The notes under the pieces: model-generated
The model's database searches: none
What the model saw: only the letters and a program-made list of their open reading frames with translations
Told to the model about the DNA's origin: nothing
Program-made: the position numbers and the translations under genes
Origin: an uncultured Lachnospiraceae bacterium
Lineage (GTDB): Bacteria; Bacillota; Clostridia; Lachnospirales; Lachnospiraceae
Length of the DNA: 64,000 nucleotides
NCBI GenBank assembly: GCA_949471785.1
Contig: CASWRE010000004.1
Location: 62,001-126,000 of the forward strand
Reading direction: 5' to 3'
In this document: positions 15,173 to 26,084 of the stretch, piece after piece
How positions within the stretch are numbered: the stretch's first letter is position 1
Layout: each line of letters starts with the position of its first letter

Positions 15173-17074
15173 TTATGAGGTTTCGCGTTCGGTTTCCGAT
15201 GTACCGGCAGGAGAGGCTGTATCGTCCGCCGGCGCATCTGTCCCGGATGGTGCGGAACGGTTTCCGTCCGCTGCCTTTGCCCCGCCGGAGGTTTTCTTCG
15301 TGCAGGTAACAATTTCTTTTCCGGTATAGGTGATGGCCGCGGTATCTCCGGCCTGTAATAGCAGCATTTCTTCATGTTCCGAAGCCTTCGCCCGGTAGAG
15401 CCCGTCGGTTTCGTCAATCAGATAGATCCAGGTGTTGCCGTCGATGGTGATATAGCGGATATCCCGTATCCGTATCACTGCCTCGTCGGTGGCCGTGAGG
15501 GGCTCACTCGAAGCCTGTTCGCCGTCGGCAGACGGGTCTGTCTCTTCTGCGGCATTTCCCAGCCCCAGCAGACTGCGGTAACGGCTCATGCACTCTGCCT
15601 GAGTGGCGGCCGTGGTGACCAGATTATACTGTTCCACATTGACGGCGGCGTAAAGTTTGACCAGGCCGCTGGCGTCTTTGAGAACCATGATATAAGTGGG
15701 GTTGCCGTCCACATTAATCAGGGACGGAAAACTGGCCTGGTAGCCTTTTTCCTGTACTTCGCCTTCGGCTGCGGCCATGGCCGATTTTTCGTCGGCGCCT
15801 GCAATCTCATAATAATGGGTTTCTCCGGTGCGCTCATTGGCCAGCAGGAAACCGATGTTGGAACTGTCGCCGTTGACGGAGGTGATACCAGTGTAGATCC
15901 AGATATCGCTGTCTTTGGCCACGAAACCATAGTCGGAGGTCGGCGCCACATCGTCCGATTCTTCGTCGTCGTCAGAGTAATATGTCGTGACCTGTTTACA
16001 GCCCTTTTTGCCGAATACGCTGTTGACAAAGCCGTTTTGCAGGGTTCCGTACCAATTGTACTGTTTGCAGATTAAGTCGCCGTCGTAAACCACGTCCACC
16101 CATACCGGGACGTCCGCCAGATCATAGCGGGTCAGATCGCCGGTCACCGGGTCAAGGATGATCGCTCCTTTGACGGTTGTCCCGCCGAAGAGGGAGATCG
16201 TCTTGTCATAAATCGAGGCCACATAGTAGGGATGGCCTTCCTCGTCAATCTCAAAATGCAGGTTGCCAAACATGAGCGTCGGATAATGCATACGGATATG
16301 GCGGGCGGCATCCTGGCCGAAATACGCCGAGGGCACATAAATCATGCCGGAGGCGCACTCCTGATAGGAAGCGGACATGGACACCGGATCGACGGTCACA
16401 TACCCGGGCACGCCCTCGCCCTTATTGTTGTTCCATTTGAAGAATCCGGCGTAATCCAGAGCGGCTACTTTTTTCGGCGAGCCGTTAAAGTCGATCTGGG
16501 TATAATAATCGGACACATTGTACTGGCTGACCACACTGGACAGTGAGCCGATCTCCCGGTCGCCCAGCATCTGGGCCGACATGGTATCCATCAAAGCGAT
16601 GGAGTCCGTACCCAGAGTTTCGGCCAGATCCTCCTCAAATACGGCGTCTTCTACCTTCAGCAGCGAGGCATAAGCGCCGGCGTGGAAGGCGGAAAATCCG
16701 CTTATGGCCGCCAGAACCGTAAAAGCGAGCAGGATCAGGGGGATGAAATACAGCACAGAGCGTTTTTCCGCCAGTTCCCGCCAGGAAGATCTTCCGTTGG
16801 CCATCTCATTTTCATATCCCTGACATCCCAGGGCGAAGGTGAGATGGTCCAGCAGAGCAAAGGTCAGGGTAGCCGCAAAAGCGGTGATCCAGAGCGTCGG
16901 CGCATGGAAATTCAGCGGCGTCAGCAGAAAATAGAAACTGATAAATAAAATCACGGCAGCTGCGACGGCGCCCGTAAGGGCGGACTGCAGCCTCAGTTTT
17001 GCCAGGGTGGGAGGGGTACTTCTGTGTTTTGATTTTTTGCTTTTGTGATACTTGTGGATTTTGTCTTGTTTCAT
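15173..17074 (-). CDS. Large membrane-anchored protein of unknown function (N-terminal TM segments, long extracytoplasmic region with PepSY-like segments)
   Basis: MKQDKIHKYHKSKKSKHRSTPPTLAKLRLQSALTGAVAAAVILFISFYFLL... then soluble segment incl. 'HFEIDEEGHPYYVASIYDKTISLFGGTTVKGAIILDPVTGDLTRY'. The 17173 start lies inside the leader RNA, so 17074 is preferred. Confidence 0.7.
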   Translation of the reverse strand: MKQDKIHKYHKSKKSKHRSTPPTLAKLRLQSALTGAVAAAVILFISFYFLLTPLNFHAPTLWITAFAATLTFALLDHLTFALGCQGYENEMANGRSSWRELAEKRSVLYFIPLILLAFTVLAAISGFSAFHAGAYASLLKVEDAVFEEDLAETLGTDSIALMDTMSAQMLGDREIGSLSSVVSQYNVSDYYTQIDFNGSPKKVAALDYAGFFKWNNNKGEGVPGYVTVDPVSMSASYQECASGMIYVPSAYFGQDAARHIRMHYPTLMFGNLHFEIDEEGHPYYVASIYDKTISLFGGTTVKGAIILDPVTGDLTRYDLADVPVWVDVVYDGDLICKQYNWYGTLQNGFVNSVFGKKGCKQVTTYYSDDDEESDDVAPTSDYGFVAKDSDIWIYTGITSVNGDSSNIGFLLANERTGETHYYEIAGADEKSAMAAAEGEVQEKGYQASFPSLINVDGNPTYIMVLKDASGLVKLYAAVNVEQYNLVTTAATQAECMSRYRSLLGLGNAAEETDPSADGEQASSEPLTATDEAVIRIRDIRYITIDGNTWIYLIDETDGLYRAKASEHEEMLLLQAGDTAAITYTGKEIVTCTKKTSGGAKAADGNRSAPSGTDAPADDTASPAGTSETERETS

Positions 17075-17138: not shown

Positions 17139-17179
17139 AAAAAAAGACTTTTGCCGAACCTGACGTTTGACAAAAGTCT
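17139..17179 (-). terminator. Intrinsic terminator overlapping riboswitch P1 (expression platform)
   Basis: Minus strand: AGACTTTTG-tcaaacgtcaggttcgg-CAAAAGTCT followed by TTTTTT; left arm overlaps the P1 3' strand. Confidence 0.85.
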
Positions 17180-17258
17180 TGCGATTTAATTCTCTCCGAG
17201 TACCGTGGTACTGTCCTGACGGATTTGAAACGCTCATGGCGTTGCTACTCCCTTTTGT
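17170..17258 (-). ncRNA. yybP-ykoY (manganese) riboswitch aptamer
   Basis: Minus strand ACAAAAGGGAGTAGC-AACGCcatgaGCGTT-TCAAAT-CCGTCAGGACAGTACCACGGTACTCGG-AGAGAATTAAATC-GCAAGACTTTTGT: P1 ACAAAAG/CTTTTGT, the conserved GGGAGUAGC loop, P2 AACGC/GCGTT, and the conserved GCAAGAC 3' motif. Confidence 0.82.
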
Positions 17259-17350
17259 TGAGTACTATTCTAGACCTCTTTCAGGGAATTGTCAATGGGT
17301 GAACGGAGAATTTTTATTCTGCCTGGCGCTCCCGGAGCGTTCGGGAGAGA

Positions 17351-20002
17351 TTAATCATCCGTTTCGATGGCGGCGGTTTCGATGATGAATTTCACACTGC
17401 CGGAACCGTCGGGGTTCGCGCCGTCGAAAGCGGTGTAGGCTTTATCGGCGTCGGTGACTGCTTTGAGGCGGTCGAGAACATCCTGCAGATCCACGTTGAT
17501 CAGGGTGGCCAGTTCCTGAATGCCTTCCTCATCAAATTCTTTCATGCCGTCGGCCAGTTCGGTGGAACCGTCAAGAAGCTTTCCAGAGCCTTCCTTCAGA
17601 TCGTTTCCGCCGTCGGCCAGTTTGGCGGTGCCGTCCTTGAGGGCGTCTGCGCCGTCTGCCAGCTGTCCGATGCCTTTACCCAGGGTGTCTGCGCCGGATT
17701 TTAGTGTATTGCCTCCAGCCAGGAGAGTTTTGGAACCGTCTGCCAGCTGTTTGACGCCCTTTGTCAGCGCGTCATTGTTGGCTGTCAGGGTGTCCGCGCC
17801 GGATTTCAGCTGCGCCGTCCCTTCCCTGAGAGAAGCTGCGCCGTCTGCCAGCTGTCCGATGCCGCCGCTTAAGGCTTCGGCGCCTTTGGACAGGGCGCTG
17901 AGGCCGGCGTTCAGGTCGGCTGCACCGTTGACCATGGCGTTTGCTCCCGCGTTTAAAGCGTCATTGGTCGCACAGAGCGCATCGCTTCCCGCCTTTAATT
18001 TCCCTACGGCTTTCAGGAGCTCTGCGAGCATGGCGTTCATATTGGCGGCGGGCGCCGTATCTTTCTGTAAAGCGGCCAGGCCGGTCTTTAGTTTATTTGC
18101 GCCGTCCGCGGTCTGCCCGGCGCTGTCAGCCAGCGCGGCGGCGTCTTTTTTGGCGGAATCTATGGCGTTTCCGTCAATACCGCTCTGGATTTTCTCCAGT
18201 TTTGCCTTGACATCGGTCAATTGACCGGAAGGATTGGCGCTTTTGGTTTCGCCGGAAACATCCACGGAGGCTTTCGTCTGTGTATCTACGTTTATATCAT
18301 GCAGTTTGCTCATGACAAGGGCGGCGGTTTCCTCATCCACATTGGCGGCGTCTAAAGCGGCGCGGACATTTTTTTCCTGCTGTTCATTGGCGGCGCTGTT
18401 GACGGCTTTGTTTTCTTTCTGCACGGCTTCCTTTGCCTGTGCGCTTGCCTCTTTATTGATGGCCTTTGTGCTGGCGGAAGAGGCGCTGTCGAGAACGGAG
18501 ATGGCTTCGTTTAACGTATCTTTGGCGCTGCCTATGCTTTTGTCCAGGCTGCCGGCCTGGGTCTTTAAAGTAGTGGCGGCCGATTCCGCGGATGCCGCCC
18601 TGCTCTTTAAAGCATTCGTTTCTTCGGCCAGTGTATCGGCTTCGTCTGTCAGTGTGTTTATGGTTTCGGGAAGCTGCCCGGCTGTCGGAATGATCGCCAT
18701 CAGTTTGGCGTTTAATTCAGAGATTCCTTCCTGAAGCTGCTTTGCCCCGTCGGTGTAGTCTTTTACGCCGCTCTGCAGGGAAGAAGCTCCGGCTGCCAGC
18801 TTTTTGCCGCCGTCGGACAGGTCCCCAATGCCCCTGGCCAGATCGTTTTTCTTGTCGTTTAAGGTATCAATGCCTGTCTTCAGGGTGTCCGCGCCGGTGT
18901 TTACCTTGTCAATGCCGTCAGCCAGGGTTTTTGTGCCGTCTGTATAGCTCTTGACGCCGGATTGGAGGTCGCCGGCGCCTTTTTTCAGGGTTTTCATTCC
19001 CTTTACGAGCTGATCGACTCCGTCCAGGAGATCTCCCTTTTTGTTGTCCATGGTATGGATGCCGTCTTTCAGCTTTCCGGCGCCATCGTCGGCGCTGTTC
19101 AGTCCGTCCCGGAATGTGGTGACAGAAGAGTCCAGGGTCTCCAGGCCTTCCCGCAGTTCATCACTGCCATCCACCAGCTTGGTGGACGCGTCGGTCAGCT
19201 CGTCGATGCTTTCCTTGAGATCATCCATACTGTCGATATCATCCAGCCCCAGGTCATTCAGCGTGCCCGTGGTGGCCACGGTGGCGGTCAGGGCCAGGGA
19301 GAAATTCTCCACATCGGCGGTGATTTCCACGTAATCGGGAATCTCTTTATCTTTCAGGTCGTCGATATCATCCAGCTGCAGACTGTCGGCCAGCCCCGGA
19401 AAACCGATGCCCATGACAATATCGTTTTTGCCGTCGGAGACGACCTTGCCGTTTACGACTTCTACGTTGGAGAATTTATCTCCCGGCAGGATCATGCCCG
19501 TGGCCATCATGAAGGGGGTGGAGATGATCTCTTCGGTATCGCCCACCTTGACCTTCTGTCCGGAATGATTCTGGTAGTCGATGCGGATCTTTACCTTTCC
19601 GCTCTTTCCTGCCAGAGCGTCAGGCTGGATCTGCCGGCCGTCCAGGTAGTAGGTGATTTTTACGGAAACCGGCAGGGAGGCGTTTGTTTCGCCCTGGTAG
19701 TAGATATCATTCCCCCCGGCGGCCCAGGTGATGGAGCCGTCGCTGTTTTCGGAAAAGCTCTCGTCGCCCTTCACGTTCTCGATATTTTGCAGATCACTGT
19801 TGTCGGTCAGCGAGGAATTTTTGGAAGTGTTTTTCAGCCAGTTGCTGACGATGACCTTCTGGGTGGAGCCGTTCTCGTCGGCGGTCACATAGACGGTCTG
19901 CTCTTTTTCCGCGGCGGCGGCCAGCACCGTAGTGGCCGGAAGGGATACGGAAAGGGTAAGGGCCATAGCGGCCATCATGGCCTGCACATATTTTCTTTTC
20001 AT
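17351..20002 (-). CDS. Secreted LxxG heptad-repeat protein (YhgE/Pip-associated 'X-X-X-Leu-X-X-Gly' repeats)
   Basis: Signal peptide 'MKRKYVQAMMAAMALTLSVSLPATTVLAAAA'; many repeats such as 'LKSGADTLGKGIGQLADGADALKDGTAKLADGGNDLKEGSGKLLDGSTELADG'. Confidence 0.85.
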   Translation of the reverse strand: MKRKYVQAMMAAMALTLSVSLPATTVLAAAAEKEQTVYVTADENGSTQKVIVSNWLKNTSKNSSLTDNSDLQNIENVKGDESFSENSDGSITWAAGGNDIYYQGETNASLPVSVKITYYLDGRQIQPDALAGKSGKVKIRIDYQNHSGQKVKVGDTEEIISTPFMMATGMILPGDKFSNVEVVNGKVVSDGKNDIVMGIGFPGLADSLQLDDIDDLKDKEIPDYVEITADVENFSLALTATVATTGTLNDLGLDDIDSMDDLKESIDELTDASTKLVDGSDELREGLETLDSSVTTFRDGLNSADDGAGKLKDGIHTMDNKKGDLLDGVDQLVKGMKTLKKGAGDLQSGVKSYTDGTKTLADGIDKVNTGADTLKTGIDTLNDKKNDLARGIGDLSDGGKKLAAGASSLQSGVKDYTDGAKQLQEGISELNAKLMAIIPTAGQLPETINTLTDEADTLAEETNALKSRAASAESAATTLKTQAGSLDKSIGSAKDTLNEAISVLDSASSASTKAINKEASAQAKEAVQKENKAVNSAANEQQEKNVRAALDAANVDEETAALVMSKLHDINVDTQTKASVDVSGETKSANPSGQLTDVKAKLEKIQSGIDGNAIDSAKKDAAALADSAGQTADGANKLKTGLAALQKDTAPAANMNAMLAELLKAVGKLKAGSDALCATNDALNAGANAMVNGAADLNAGLSALSKGAEALSGGIGQLADGAASLREGTAQLKSGADTLTANNDALTKGVKQLADGSKTLLAGGNTLKSGADTLGKGIGQLADGADALKDGTAKLADGGNDLKEGSGKLLDGSTELADGMKEFDEEGIQELATLINVDLQDVLDRLKAVTDADKAYTAFDGANPDGSGSVKFIIETAAIETDD

Positions 20003-20004
20003 GA

Positions 20005-22086
20005 TTACTTTCCTCCTGCTTTATGAATTTTAAAATTTTTACTGGTTTTACAAATGATGCCGTCAAACAGCCAGTACATGGCCGGAAGGAACAGCAGTAC
20101 CGCGCACATACTGATCAGGGCGCCCCTGGCCATCAGTAAACACAGGGAGCTGATCATGTCGATCTGGGAGTACATGGCTACGCCGAAGGTCGCCGCGAAA
20201 AATCCGCAGGCGGAGATGATGACGGAGCGCATGCTGGTCCGGTGGGCCGTCAGTATGGAATCCCGCTTGCTGTTTCCGGCTCCCCGCTCTTTTTCGTAAC
20301 GGCTGGTCATCAGTATGGCGTAATCTACGGTGGAACCGAGCTGGATCGTGCCGATGACGATGGAGGCGATAAAGGGCAACACCCCGCCCGTCAGATAAGG
20401 GATACCCATGTTGATGAAAATAGCCCCCTCGATGACCAGCACCAGCACCACCGGCAGGGATATGGAGCCAAACACAATCAGGATAATGACGAATACGGCC
20501 AGGATCGATACGGCGCTGACCACGCTGAAATCGTGATCGGTGATCTCTATCAGGTCTTTGGTACAGGGCGCCTCCCCTACCAGCATACCATTGGGATCAT
20601 GGGATTTCAAGATAGAGTTAAGATCGGCTAACTGTTCGTTTACCTCGTTGGAGGCCACGGCATATTCATTCATGATCAGCATCAGCTCGTAGTTATCGCT
20701 CTCCAGAACGTCTCGCACATCCTCAGGGATCATACTCTGGGGAAAGGTGGGGCCGATGATGCTTTCCAGTCCCAGTACCTGTTTGACGCCGTTTACCTGT
20801 TCCATTTCGTCGATCATCTTGTATTTCTGTTTTTCATCCATATTCCGGTCCAGCAGGATCATATGGGCAGCGCCCATCTCGTAATCTTCCTGGAGCAGCG
20901 TGTTGGCCTGAATGCTGGGAAGTTCCTTCGGCAGGGTAGAGTCCAGATTGTAATACACATTCGTATGGGCCTGGAAATAGGCGAAGGGTATGAACAACAG
21001 GACGAAAAGTATGGCAAACAATGTGTGATGGTCAACGATAAATTCGGATACCTTTGGGAGTTCAGGGATCAGCGCCCGGTGTTTTGTCTTTGCCAGGGCT
21101 TTATCGAAGATCAGGATCATGGAGGGCAGTATGGTGACGCAGCAGATCACACCGAACACGACGCCTTTCATCATGACCACACCCAGGTCGAGGCCCAGGG
21201 TAAAGCTCATGAAGCAGAGGGCGAAGAAACCGGCAATCGTGGTGATGGAGCTGCCCACCACGGATTTGATGGTGGCGGCTATGGCCTGGGCCATGGCTTC
21301 TCTGTGGTCGTCCGGCCACAGCTCTAGCTGCTCCTGATAGCTGTGCCAGAGGAAGATGGAGTAGTCCATCGTGACGCCCAATTGCAGCACCGCGCACAGG
21401 GCCTGGGTGATGTAAGAGATCTCTCCGGTGATGATATTGGTTCCCAGATTGTAGATGATGGCAATACCGATACCGCCCAGAAATAAAAACGGGATCAGCC
21501 AGGATTCCATGGAGACCATCAGCACCACGGTCAAAAGCAGCACCGCGATCACCACGTAGATGACGACCTCTTCCTCGGCCAGATTTTTCGTGTCCGTGAC
21601 CACCGCCGACATACCGCTTAAGAAACACTGCTTTCCGGCCAGGTTCCGGATATTGCCGATGGCCTCCATGGTTTCATCTGCCGAGGTGGTGGTCTCGAAA
21701 ATGATAAACATCATCGTGGAATCATCGGAATTGAACGCGTTCCGTATTTTCTCCGGCAGGATATCCATGGGGATACGCAAATCGGCAAAGCTGTCGTACC
21801 AGACGACCTTGGAGACGTATTGTACATTCTCGATCTGTTCTTTCAGTTTGGAGACGTCCTTATTGTCCATGCCCTGACAGATAAACATGGAATAAGCTCC
21901 GGTACCGAACTCCTCCACCAGTATATCCTGACCCTTCATTGTCTCAATCTCTCCGGGCAGATAGTATAAAATGTCGTAGTTTACCCGCGTGTTTATGTAC
22001 CCGAAAGCTGCCGGAAACAAAAGCAGCAGGCAGATGATGAAAATCGGGATACGCAGTTTTACAATTTTTCTTCCCAGATTTTCCAT
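20005..22086 (-). CDS. MMPL/RND-superfamily transporter
   Basis: Two-fold repeated TM architecture; 'LGVTMDYSIFLWHSYQEQL' and 'LGSTVDYAILMTSRYEKER' motifs. Confidence 0.92.
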   Translation of the reverse strand: MENLGRKIVKLRIPIFIICLLLLFPAAFGYINTRVNYDILYYLPGEIETMKGQDILVEEFGTGAYSMFICQGMDNKDVSKLKEQIENVQYVSKVVWYDSFADLRIPMDILPEKIRNAFNSDDSTMMFIIFETTTSADETMEAIGNIRNLAGKQCFLSGMSAVVTDTKNLAEEEVVIYVVIAVLLLTVVLMVSMESWLIPFLFLGGIGIAIIYNLGTNIITGEISYITQALCAVLQLGVTMDYSIFLWHSYQEQLELWPDDHREAMAQAIAATIKSVVGSSITTIAGFFALCFMSFTLGLDLGVVMMKGVVFGVICCVTILPSMILIFDKALAKTKHRALIPELPKVSEFIVDHHTLFAILFVLLFIPFAYFQAHTNVYYNLDSTLPKELPSIQANTLLQEDYEMGAAHMILLDRNMDEKQKYKMIDEMEQVNGVKQVLGLESIIGPTFPQSMIPEDVRDVLESDNYELMLIMNEYAVASNEVNEQLADLNSILKSHDPNGMLVGEAPCTKDLIEITDHDFSVVSAVSILAVFVIILIVFGSISLPVVLVLVIEGAIFINMGIPYLTGGVLPFIASIVIGTIQLGSTVDYAILMTSRYEKERGAGNSKRDSILTAHRTSMRSVIISACGFFAATFGVAMYSQIDMISSLCLLMARGALISMCAVLLFLPAMYWLFDGIICKTSKNFKIHKAGGK

Positions 22087-23021: not shown

Positions 23022-23208
23022 GGAGCGGATCGTGTACGTGCAGTATGTATGCAGCAAGAGCCAACAGACTGCACAAAAATAGAGAAAATATTCGTTGGGT
23101 TTTGTTGAACCGTTTGTTGTACAATGACGCTGAATCGGGTAAAATAGATGCGGCTTTGTGTAGCCAGCAGGATAAACCGGCATGGCCGGGCGACAAGAGG
23201 GACTAGCG

Positions 23209-24600
23209 ATGTTTGAACGAGCAAAGAAGAAGAAGGTGAAGGGACTCCATATCATCATTGTCGGCTGCGGCAAGGTGGGCGTCACGCTGGTGGAGCGGCT
23301 GGTGCAGGAGGATCATGATATCACCGTGGTGGATAAAGACGGAGATAAGGTGGAAAGCCTGATCAATCGCCATGATATATATGGTATTACGGGAAACGGC
23401 GCCAGCTTCAATACACTGATGGAAGCAGGGATTGAGGAGGCGGACATTCTGATCGCCGTGACGGGCTCTGACGAGCTGAACCTGCTGTGCTGTGTGGTGG
23501 CCAAGCAGGCCGGACAGTGCGATGTCATCGCCCGGGTGCGGACGCCGGACTACAGTGAGGAAGCGGCTTACTTAAAAGCGAAACTTGAGCTGGCCATGAT
23601 CATCAATCCCGAGCTGGAAGCAGCCAGGGAGATCGCCCGTATTCTTTATCTGCCCACGTCCATCGGCGTCAGCTCTTTTGCCCGGGGCCAGGCGGAAATG
23701 GTACGCATTAAGGTACCGAAGGGAAATATGCTCCACGGAAAAAAGATTGTGGAGTTAGGCCAGGAGCTGTCCGGAGCGGTGCTGATCTGCGCCGTGGAGC
23801 GGGGCAGCGACGTATTTATCCCCGACGGTTCTTTTGAGCTGATGGAGGGAGACGTGGTGACGTTTGTGTCCCCGGCCCGGGACGCCAAGTCGTTTTTGAG
23901 GAAAATCGGATTTCAGACTCACCAGGTCAAGGATGTCATGATCATAGGCGGCGGCCGGTCGGCCTATTATCTGACCAAACAGCTTCTGCGGGTAGGAATC
24001 GCGGTGAAAATCATCGAGCAGGATAAAGCGCGCAGCGAGGAACTCTGTGCCCTGCTGCCCAAGGCGGTGGTGATCAACGGAGACGGCACGGATGCGGACG
24101 TGCTTAAAGAGGCGGGGATTGAGGAGGTGGAATCCTTTGTGGCTCTGACCGGTATCGATGAGGAAAATATTCTGCTGACCCTCCATGCCAGCGATGTGTC
24201 GGAAGCAAAAGTGGTCACTAAGATTAATCGGACGATGTTTAATAAGGTGGTCCGCCATCTGGATCTGGGCAGCGTGGTGTATCCGAAATATATCACCACC
24301 GAGGCGCTGATCGCTTTTGTCCGTGCAAAAAATGCGTCAAAGAACAGCAATATTGAGACGATGGTTCATCTGTTTGACAATCGGGTGGAGGCTATTGAGT
24401 TTGTCGTGGGCGAGGGTACCGGGGTGACGGACATTCCTCTGAGCCGTCTGCGTCTCAAGAGCCATTTGCTGGTAGCCTGCATCAACCGGGCGGGGCGGGT
24501 GCTGATCCCCGGCGGAAATGATGAGATTAAGGTCGGAGATTCGGTGATCATTGTCACTACGCATACGGGTTTTGACGATGTGCAGGATATCCTGAGATAG
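23209..24600 (+). CDS. trkA: Trk potassium uptake regulatory protein TrkA (two RCK_N/TrkA_C units)
   Basis: 'HIIIVGCGKVGVTLVERLVQEDHDITVVDKD' and 'DVMIIGGGRSAYYLTKQLLRVGIAVKIIEQD'. Confidence 0.93.
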   Translation: MFERAKKKKVKGLHIIIVGCGKVGVTLVERLVQEDHDITVVDKDGDKVESLINRHDIYGITGNGASFNTLMEAGIEEADILIAVTGSDELNLLCCVVAKQAGQCDVIARVRTPDYSEEAAYLKAKLELAMIINPELEAAREIARILYLPTSIGVSSFARGQAEMVRIKVPKGNMLHGKKIVELGQELSGAVLICAVERGSDVFIPDGSFELMEGDVVTFVSPARDAKSFLRKIGFQTHQVKDVMIIGGGRSAYYLTKQLLRVGIAVKIIEQDKARSEELCALLPKAVVINGDGTDADVLKEAGIEEVESFVALTGIDEENILLTLHASDVSEAKVVTKINRTMFNKVVRHLDLGSVVYPKYITTEALIAFVRAKNASKNSNIETMVHLFDNRVEAIEFVVGEGTGVTDIPLSRLRLKSHLLVACINRAGRVLIPGGNDEIKVGDSVIIVTTHTGFDDVQDILR

Positions 24601-24614
24601 GCGGTGACGGCGAT

Positions 24615-26084
24615 ATGAACAGAAGAATGGTGGTCTTTATCCTGGGTTGGATATTGAAACTGGAGGCTCTCTTTTTGCTGCTTCCGTTATTGGTGGGGCT
24701 TTTGTATCGGGAATTTACCGGGTGTCTGTGCTTTCTGATTACGATCGCCGTCTGCGGGCTGGCCGGTGTGCTGATCGCCAGAAAAAAGCCGGCCAATACG
24801 GTGTTTTATATGAAAGAGGGGTGTGCCGCCACGGCTCTGGGGTGGATTCTGCTCAGTATCACGGGGGCGCTTCCTTTTTATCTGAGCAGGGAGATCCCCT
24901 CCTATACGGACGCATTGTTTGAGACGATCTCCGGCTTTACCACGACGGGCGCCAGTGTGCTGCCCGAGGTGGAAAGTTTGTCCTATTGTATGCTGTTCTG
25001 GCGGAGCTTTACCCATTGGCTGGGCGGCATGGGCGTGCTGGTGTTTCTGCTGGCAGTGATCAAGATGACCGGGGGATCTCACATGAACCTGATGCGGGCG
25101 GAGAGTCCGGGGCCGTCCGTGGGCAAGCTGGTACCGAAGGTGAAGCATACGGCGGCAATCCTTTATCAGATCTATCTGTTTCTGACCGTGGTGCAGATCG
25201 TGCTGCTGCTTTTGGGCGGCATGCCTGTATTTGATGCGGTGACTACGGCTTTCGGTACGGCGGGTACGGGGGGCTTTGGCATTAAGAATGACAGTATGGC
25301 CGGGTATTCCCCTTACATTCAATGGGTAACGACGATTTTTATGCTTTTGTTTGGCGTGAATTTCAATATGTATTTTCTTCTTCTGCTTAAAAAATGGAAG
25401 ACAGCTTTTCGCATGGAGGAAGTGCGGGGATACTTTCTGGTGGTTCTGGCCGCCACAGGTATCATATTGGTCAACACTTATGACGCGGCCGTGGGATTTT
25501 TCGGAAGTCTGCGTCATGTGGCGTTTCAGGTGGCGTCTATCATCACGACCACGGGTTTTTCCACGGTGGATTTTGATCTGTGGCCGGAGGCGTCCCGGAC
25601 GGTTCTGGTGATGCTGATGTTTATCGGCGCTTGCGCGGGCAGCACGGGCGGCGGCATTAAGGTATCCCGCTTTATTGTGCTTATTAAATCGGTGCGGAGA
25701 GAACTCAGCTCCTATATCTACCCGAAGAGCGTGAAGAGGATCAACGTGGACGGGCGGCCGGTGGAGCATGAGGTGATCCGCGGTATCAATGTATATTTTA
25801 TCACGTTTATCCTGATATTTTCCTTTTCGGTGCTGTGCCTGAGTTTCGAGGGGAAGGGGATGGTGACCAGCTTTACGGCGGTGGCGGCGACCATCAATAA
25901 TATCGGCCCCGGCCTGGAACTGGTGGGGCCCGCGCAGAATTTTGGGGGGTTCACACCGTTGTCTAAGTATGTGCTGATGTTTGATATGCTGGCCGGAAGG
26001 CTGGAGCTTTTCCCGCTGCTTTTGCTGTTCTATCCGCCCTGTCTGAAAGGGCTTTTAGGGATTGGACGCAGGGGAAAGAAGTAA
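24615..26084 (+). CDS. trkH: Trk potassium uptake protein TrkH
   Basis: 'ETISGFTTTGASVLPEVESL...FWRSFTHWLGGMGVLVF', 'TTTGFSTVDFDLWPEASRTVLVMLMFIGACAGSTGGGIKVSR'. Confidence 0.94.
   Translation: MNRRMVVFILGWILKLEALFLLLPLLVGLLYREFTGCLCFLITIAVCGLAGVLIARKKPANTVFYMKEGCAATALGWILLSITGALPFYLSREIPSYTDALFETISGFTTTGASVLPEVESLSYCMLFWRSFTHWLGGMGVLVFLLAVIKMTGGSHMNLMRAESPGPSVGKLVPKVKHTAAILYQIYLFLTVVQIVLLLLGGMPVFDAVTTAFGTAGTGGFGIKNDSMAGYSPYIQWVTTIFMLLFGVNFNMYFLLLLKKWKTAFRMEEVRGYFLVVLAATGIILVNTYDAAVGFFGSLRHVAFQVASIITTTGFSTVDFDLWPEASRTVLVMLMFIGACAGSTGGGIKVSRFIVLIKSVRRELSSYIYPKSVKRINVDGRPVEHEVIRGINVYFITFILIFSFSVLCLSFEGKGMVTSFTAVAATINNIGPGLELVGPAQNFGGFTPLSKYVLMFDMLAGRLELFPLLLLFYPPCLKGLLGIGRRGKK

Follow-up and report, generated by a model that had tools for sequence, protein, structure and literature searches.

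In a small clade of Lachnospiraceae, a Mn2+ riboswitch of the known yybP-ykoY class precedes the gene of a 633-aa protein that belongs to a large family without a name, which is a new, non-transporter target family for this class. The leader found in the window (the whole stretch of 64,000 nucleotides that was analysed) carries a genuine yybP-ykoY Mn2+ aptamer together with a promoter and a mutually exclusive terminator, and the protein encoded downstream shows no exporter homology. The gene and the elements of its leader are located as follows:

15173 to 17074, minus strand: target gene of the 633-aa protein, characterised by translation, family alignment and structure model, without a Pfam or NCBIfam family
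17139 to 17180, minus strand: intrinsic terminator read from the sequence, with a 12-bp stem (AAGACUUUUGUC/GGCAAAAGUCUU) and a U-run
17168 to 17258, minus strand: yybP-ykoY-type Mn2+ aptamer (covariance model R1, 60.2 bits, E = 2e-11)
17217, minus strand: adenosine of the L3 'UCA', equivalent to A41 (L. lactis) and A48 (X. oryzae), which coordinate Mn, and present in all four orthologue leaders
17267 to 17295, minus strand: predicted sigma-70 promoter TTGACA-17-TAGAAT (scan: 11 of 12 consensus positions vs. 0.5 expected in shuffles)

Read by eye, the core of the leader (CAAAAGGGAGUAGC...CCGUCAGGAC...CGG...GCAAGACUUUUG) is that of yybP-ykoY, with the conserved L1 (GGGGAGUAG...GCRAGAC) located inside P1. 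The aptamer comprises P1, L1 (GGGAGUAGC/GCAAGAC), P2 and P3 with L3 (CCGUCAGGAC), and lacks the P4 hairpin. In particular, L1 was invariant or nearly so across the four orthologue leaders and 27 members from the order, and L3 (17222-17213, minus strand) holds the 'UCA' whose adenosine coordinates Mn in the L. lactis and X. oryzae elements (PMC6754395). In contrast to the crystal structures of these two elements, which show a four-way junction with P4, the aptamer of the window forms a three-way junction, as P3 is connected to P1 by GAGAGAAUUAAAUC, which forms no hairpin. P4 also appears to be missing from several R1 members located ahead of transporters, and it was therefore treated as optional in the order. 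All 21 aptamer pairs form in the four leaders, 4 of them being altered on both sides, and the covariation score was reached by none of 500 shuffles, a result that is supportive but falls short of conclusive, given the few sequences (n = 4) and a structure drawn from the window.

The terminator folds at -16.7 kcal/mol and its stem is kept in four genomes. The 3' strand of P1 (17176-17171) falls wholly within its 5' arm, and therefore P1 and the terminator are mutually exclusive; a simple terminator scan, which accepts shorter loops only, missed it. The promoter, found about 10 nt upstream of P1, is predicted to drive the leader, and equivalents were detected in the genomes G514 (TTGACA-17-TAAAAT) and G021 (TTGACA-17-TATGAT). 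Moreover, the leader runs straight into the 633-aa gene, so cotranscription of riboswitch and gene is supported by the adjacent promoter and the uninterrupted leader. The riboswitch-controlled position assigned to this ORF by the sequence-only reading was thus confirmed, the aptamer and the gene being placed in the same predicted transcript. The element shares with yybP-ykoY (RF00080) its L1, the L3 'UCA' with the Mn-sensing adenosine and a P1 that competes with an intrinsic terminator, and the class precedes metal-transport genes in relatives; it differs from the class in lying below the detection of the Rfam model and in having a target that is not a transporter. Since Mn stabilises P1 against the terminator in the known mechanism (PMC6754395), Mn specificity and the ON direction are predicted here by analogy with it, and a riboswitch with ON logic is held with high confidence.

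The Rfam scan of the window left the riboswitch uncalled, and RF00080 matched neither the leader alone (E up to 10) nor any part of the whole genome (E ≤ 0.001). This model gave the E. coli mntP element 41.6 bits vs. its own cut-off of 45 and exceeded that cut-off in none of 150 Lachnospiraceae genomes, so its threshold is not diagnostic here; with the mntP control below the cut-off and transporter-linked leaders missed, RF00080 was dropped as arbiter. A strict core pattern (GGGAGTAGC-N-GTCARNNC-N-GCRAGACYTTT) was found in 52 of 392 genomes of the order, including that of the window, with zero matches in the reversed control. The covariance model R1 was built from 27 leaders of the order, leaving out window-like sequences. 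As its members were chosen by the core pattern, its match at 17258-17168 (minus strand) shows likeness beyond the core, short of full independence; the orthologue leaders of G514, G021 and G668 scored 65, 59 and 65 bits, respectively. R1 falls short of the E. coli element, and the bridge between R1 and RF00080 is the common L1/L3 core and the gene context, the R1 members preceding MntP, P-type ATPases and exchangers. As a separate observation, RF00080 misses most yybP-ykoY leaders of the order, while the 27-sequence R1 finds one in 161 of 396 Lachnospiraceae genomes (41%). Furthermore, RF02617 (SSRC10, Streptococcus sRNA 10) matched the window leader weakly (17139-17257, 16 bits) and the leaders L088, L089 and L095 with 38, 43 and 30 bits, respectively. 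Although described as an sRNA and not as a riboswitch, SSRC10 matches these Mn riboswitch leaders and probably represents the same class.

The minus-strand ORF (17074 to 15173) translates into 633 aa plus a stop. A ribosome-binding site rated good (GAAAGGAAA) stands just before its ATG, and the start codon is kept in the 90% identical orthologue from another genome of the same genus. Strong membrane segments were indicated by hydropathy at residues 27-58 and 104-133, and the AlphaFold model presents helices at 24-50, 59-87 and 96-128 followed by a beta-rich domain; this model was of medium quality (pLDDT 61, pTM 0.54), as obtained from an alignment of six sequences that included five relatives from viral contigs, and the model from the single sequence was unusable (pLDDT 40). 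The N terminus ahead of the membrane segments is K-rich, and the large domain formed by the remaining ~500 residues is therefore predicted to lie outside the membrane by the positive-inside rule. An N-terminal transmembrane region with a large extracytoplasmic domain, as proposed from the sequence, thus agrees with the three helices of the model, the outer location being predicted.

No family was assigned to the protein by Pfam and NCBIfam at E values up to 1, and no curated family was convincingly matched by 29 homologues, among whose profile matches MntP, TerC, UPF0016, P-type ATPases and CaCA exchangers were absent. Likewise, no match was obtained with a PDB sequence-profile search or with PHROGs and PADLOC, and no convincing one with Foldseek against the PDB, where the top matches (LGI1, amine oxidases and sialidases) were discounted as noise, with TM-scores no higher than about 0.2. 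A single viral-labelled, full-length Foldseek match (E = 6e-28) is probably a member of the protein's own family. The family alignment is strongly conserved, and the 633-aa protein yielded no identifiable domain, active site or metal-binding motif. The earlier statement that this product is not a recognisable Mn exporter therefore stands, and the target is very probably an envelope protein that does not transport.

Stretches resembling PepSY had also been noted, from which a PepSY-type modulator of proteases or other enzymes at the cell surface might be proposed. The model contains helix-plus-strands modules at 252-318 and 429-489, and the C-terminal domain of the PepSY protein YpeB ranked 15th in Foldseek (E = 8e-4, probability 0.87), although with a low TM-score and against a model of medium quality. 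Thus, the protein and the PepSY proteins (PF03413) may share tandem helix-plus-sheet modules outside the membrane, but sequence profiles give no such support, since PF03413 matched none of the 29 family members over its cut-off and hhalign gave about 1% probability between the family and the PepSY profile. The resemblance is weak, the label 'PepSY-like' possibly applies, and a modulator of this type appears quite improbable. An extracytoplasmic buffer or store of Mn2+ was considered on account of the loop DDDEESDDVAPTSD (residues 368-381), the most acidic 14-mer of the protein, which in the family alignment is restricted to the subfamily containing the riboswitch clade. However, the loop also appears in members without the switch, its acidity is variable (e.g. 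GDEESASAYDAV in G668) and the conserved residues of the alignment show no metal-site pattern, all of which makes such a function very improbable.

Homologues were found in 63 of 150 and in 176 of 396 (44%) Lachnospiraceae genomes, on plasmids of Ligilactobacillus, Aerococcus, Vibrio and Chondrinema, and in Lactobacillus phages. The latter include distant homologues in the large Lactobacillus brevis phages 521B (L249, 3485-5188; Herelleviridae) and SAC12B, annotated as 'membrane associated protein' or hypothetical. Among 77 homologue loci examined, the switch was present in four (those of the window, G514, G021 and G668) and absent from the other 73, and Mn control is therefore a property of one small clade. 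G514 belongs to the genus of the window and its orthologue has 90% identity, while G021 and G668 belong to another genus (~60%). The four switched loci group with L003 and L004, which have no switch, in a six-member clade (support 0.73), a pattern that fits one gain with losses as well as more than one gain. As L003, L004 and 71 other homologues do without the switch, the basic job of the protein need not involve Mn. Hence, a family-wide link to Mn was rejected, and the association of switch and gene, although genuine, is young and local. The 'new class of Mn-responsive envelope protein' of the sequence-only reading holds as an envelope protein with a switch in four genomes, and not for the family (73 of 77 loci without it). 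At the G668 locus (L202, roughly 1145-1315), a small hydrophobic ORF with a GTG start, its own ribosome-binding site and two putative transmembrane helices was observed between riboswitch and homologue.

Such a patchy occurrence within the clade, at 4 of 77 loci, would also be expected if the switch had been captured from an exporter leader, placing a housekeeping envelope protein under incidental Mn control of little physiological meaning. Nevertheless, none of the three elements (aptamer, promoter and terminator) is broken in the four genomes despite their divergence, and compensatory changes are seen; selection thus seems to have maintained the control, and an incidental capture is judged unlikely.

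To place this target among those of the class, a total of 59 proteins encoded downstream of riboswitches in Lachnospiraceae were assigned to Pfam classes; the set was non-random, consisting of the best R1 matches and hand-picked loci, with the window protein and L002 added by hand. It comprised 29 P-type ATPases, 9 exchangers, 6 SPFH proteins, 4 ArsB/CitMHS, 3 OadB, 2 AI-2E, 1 NfeD, 1 ABC and 3 members of the 633-aa protein's family. The survey of downstream genes thus returned mostly P-type ATPases and exchangers, and the genes following the order-wide core-pattern matches, read by eye, were P-type ATPases, Na/Ca-type exchangers, MntP, OadB and SPFH. The SPFH targets were confirmed by Pfam. 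With SPFH/NfeD among the riboswitch targets, the window locus is not alone in suggesting Mn control of membrane-quality-control genes; the analogy with the 633-aa protein would be one of common regulation only. SPFH/NfeD genes were observed after Mn riboswitches in several Clostridial genomes, namely flotillin (L055 and L089), NfeD (L201) and SPFH/HflK-like genes (L083, L092, L180, L192 and L196), and a search for yybP-ykoY together with HflK in a collection of papers found none. Other Mn riboswitches were observed before Na+-pumping decarboxylase beta subunits OadB (L062, L063, L095, L190 and L195) and before AI-2E family transporters (L200 and L217).

The genome of the window has a second Mn riboswitch (contig C35), which precedes an exchanger 57% identical to a Pfam Na_Ca_ex member; this Na+/Ca2+-type exchanger is a probable Mn exporter. 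MntP is encoded on contig C3, on which R1 reported no match. TerC was not found in this assembly, which is ~85% complete, and of 150 Lachnospiraceae genomes only 1 gave a TerC match above the family cut-off. In B. subtilis, the TerC proteins MeeF and MeeY metalate exoenzymes, meeY being under a Mn riboswitch, and TerC interacts genetically with ftsH, shows FtsH dependence upon loss and co-purifies with flotillins (PMC10246235). Like these proteins, the 633-aa product is a membrane protein linked to the envelope and predicted to be put under Mn induction by the same riboswitch class; unlike it, the TerC family of membrane proteins has Mn efflux activity, and the sequences are unrelated. By comparison with B. 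subtilis TerC, an envelope role under Mn excess is plausible.

With cation transporters making up the majority of riboswitch targets in the family, it was also considered that the protein may serve such a transporter (an exchanger or a K+ uptake system of the Trk type) as accessory subunit or as regulator, and that Mn control was added in this clade through a coupling of Mn with K+/Na+ handling. A K+ uptake pair is located 6 kb from the target gene in the window, and in 11 of 55 loci the homologue is immediately preceded by such a pair:

23182 to 26084, plus strand: trkA-trkH pair (Pfam TrkA_N/TrkA_C and TrkH)
Loci with trkA-trkH directly upstream: L111, L112, L114, L132, L142, L144, L148, L151, L153, L155 and L163

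However, every trk-adjacent case belongs to one synteny block (EF-G-[trkAH]-homologue-leuS), and in 13 loci of this EF-G/leuS block the homologue directly follows EF-G, without trk. Moreover, no trk was found near the gene at the Mn-switched G021 locus, the G668 locus being covered over 5.5 kb only, and a transporter subunit seems decidedly unlikely. The region from 17351 to 22086 was observed to hold an MMPL/RND transporter beside an 883-aa protein of xxxLxxG heptad repeats (TIGR03057), divergent from a TetR regulator; this cluster is probably a unit separate from the target gene.

In the explanation proposed here, rising cytoplasmic Mn2+ would dock L1 and L3 of the aptamer and stabilise P1, whose 3' strand would then be barred from the terminator, so that the polymerase would read into the gene (ON switch). 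The product would be anchored in the membrane, with a large portion outside the cytoplasm; rather than being an exporter itself, it may act as an envelope helper that, when Mn is in excess, protects the homeostasis of the membrane or of exported proteins (folding, quality control or metalation), complementing the Na+/Ca2+-type exchanger under the other riboswitch copy of the genome. Read loosely, as an ON switch with a non-transporting envelope helper, the whole chain is slightly favoured. The biochemical role of the protein is one that we infer, and its part in homeostasis is put forward tentatively and with considerable doubt. A broader and rather unlikely extension would be that the Mn riboswitches of Lachnospiraceae, nearly all of which have no TerC, run cation exporters together with an envelope-protection arm, formed by SPFH/NfeD in some genomes and by the 633-aa family in others; the 633-aa protein would then represent a novel type of envelope factor, induced by Mn and serving to metalate or protect proteins that are exported.

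The targets of Mn riboswitches are a direct guide to what cells need under Mn excess, and the riboswitch escapes the current Rfam model in a family where 41% of the sampled genomes carry one. The switch described here offers a first clue to the function of a protein family found in 44% of the sampled Lachnospiraceae genomes and in some Lactobacillus phages. Its position before a conserved, non-transporter envelope family, together with that of other copies before SPFH/NfeD genes, hints at a testable contribution of envelope damage or mis-metalation to Mn stress, and suggests that some gut bacteria meet Mn excess with an envelope protein besides metal pumps.
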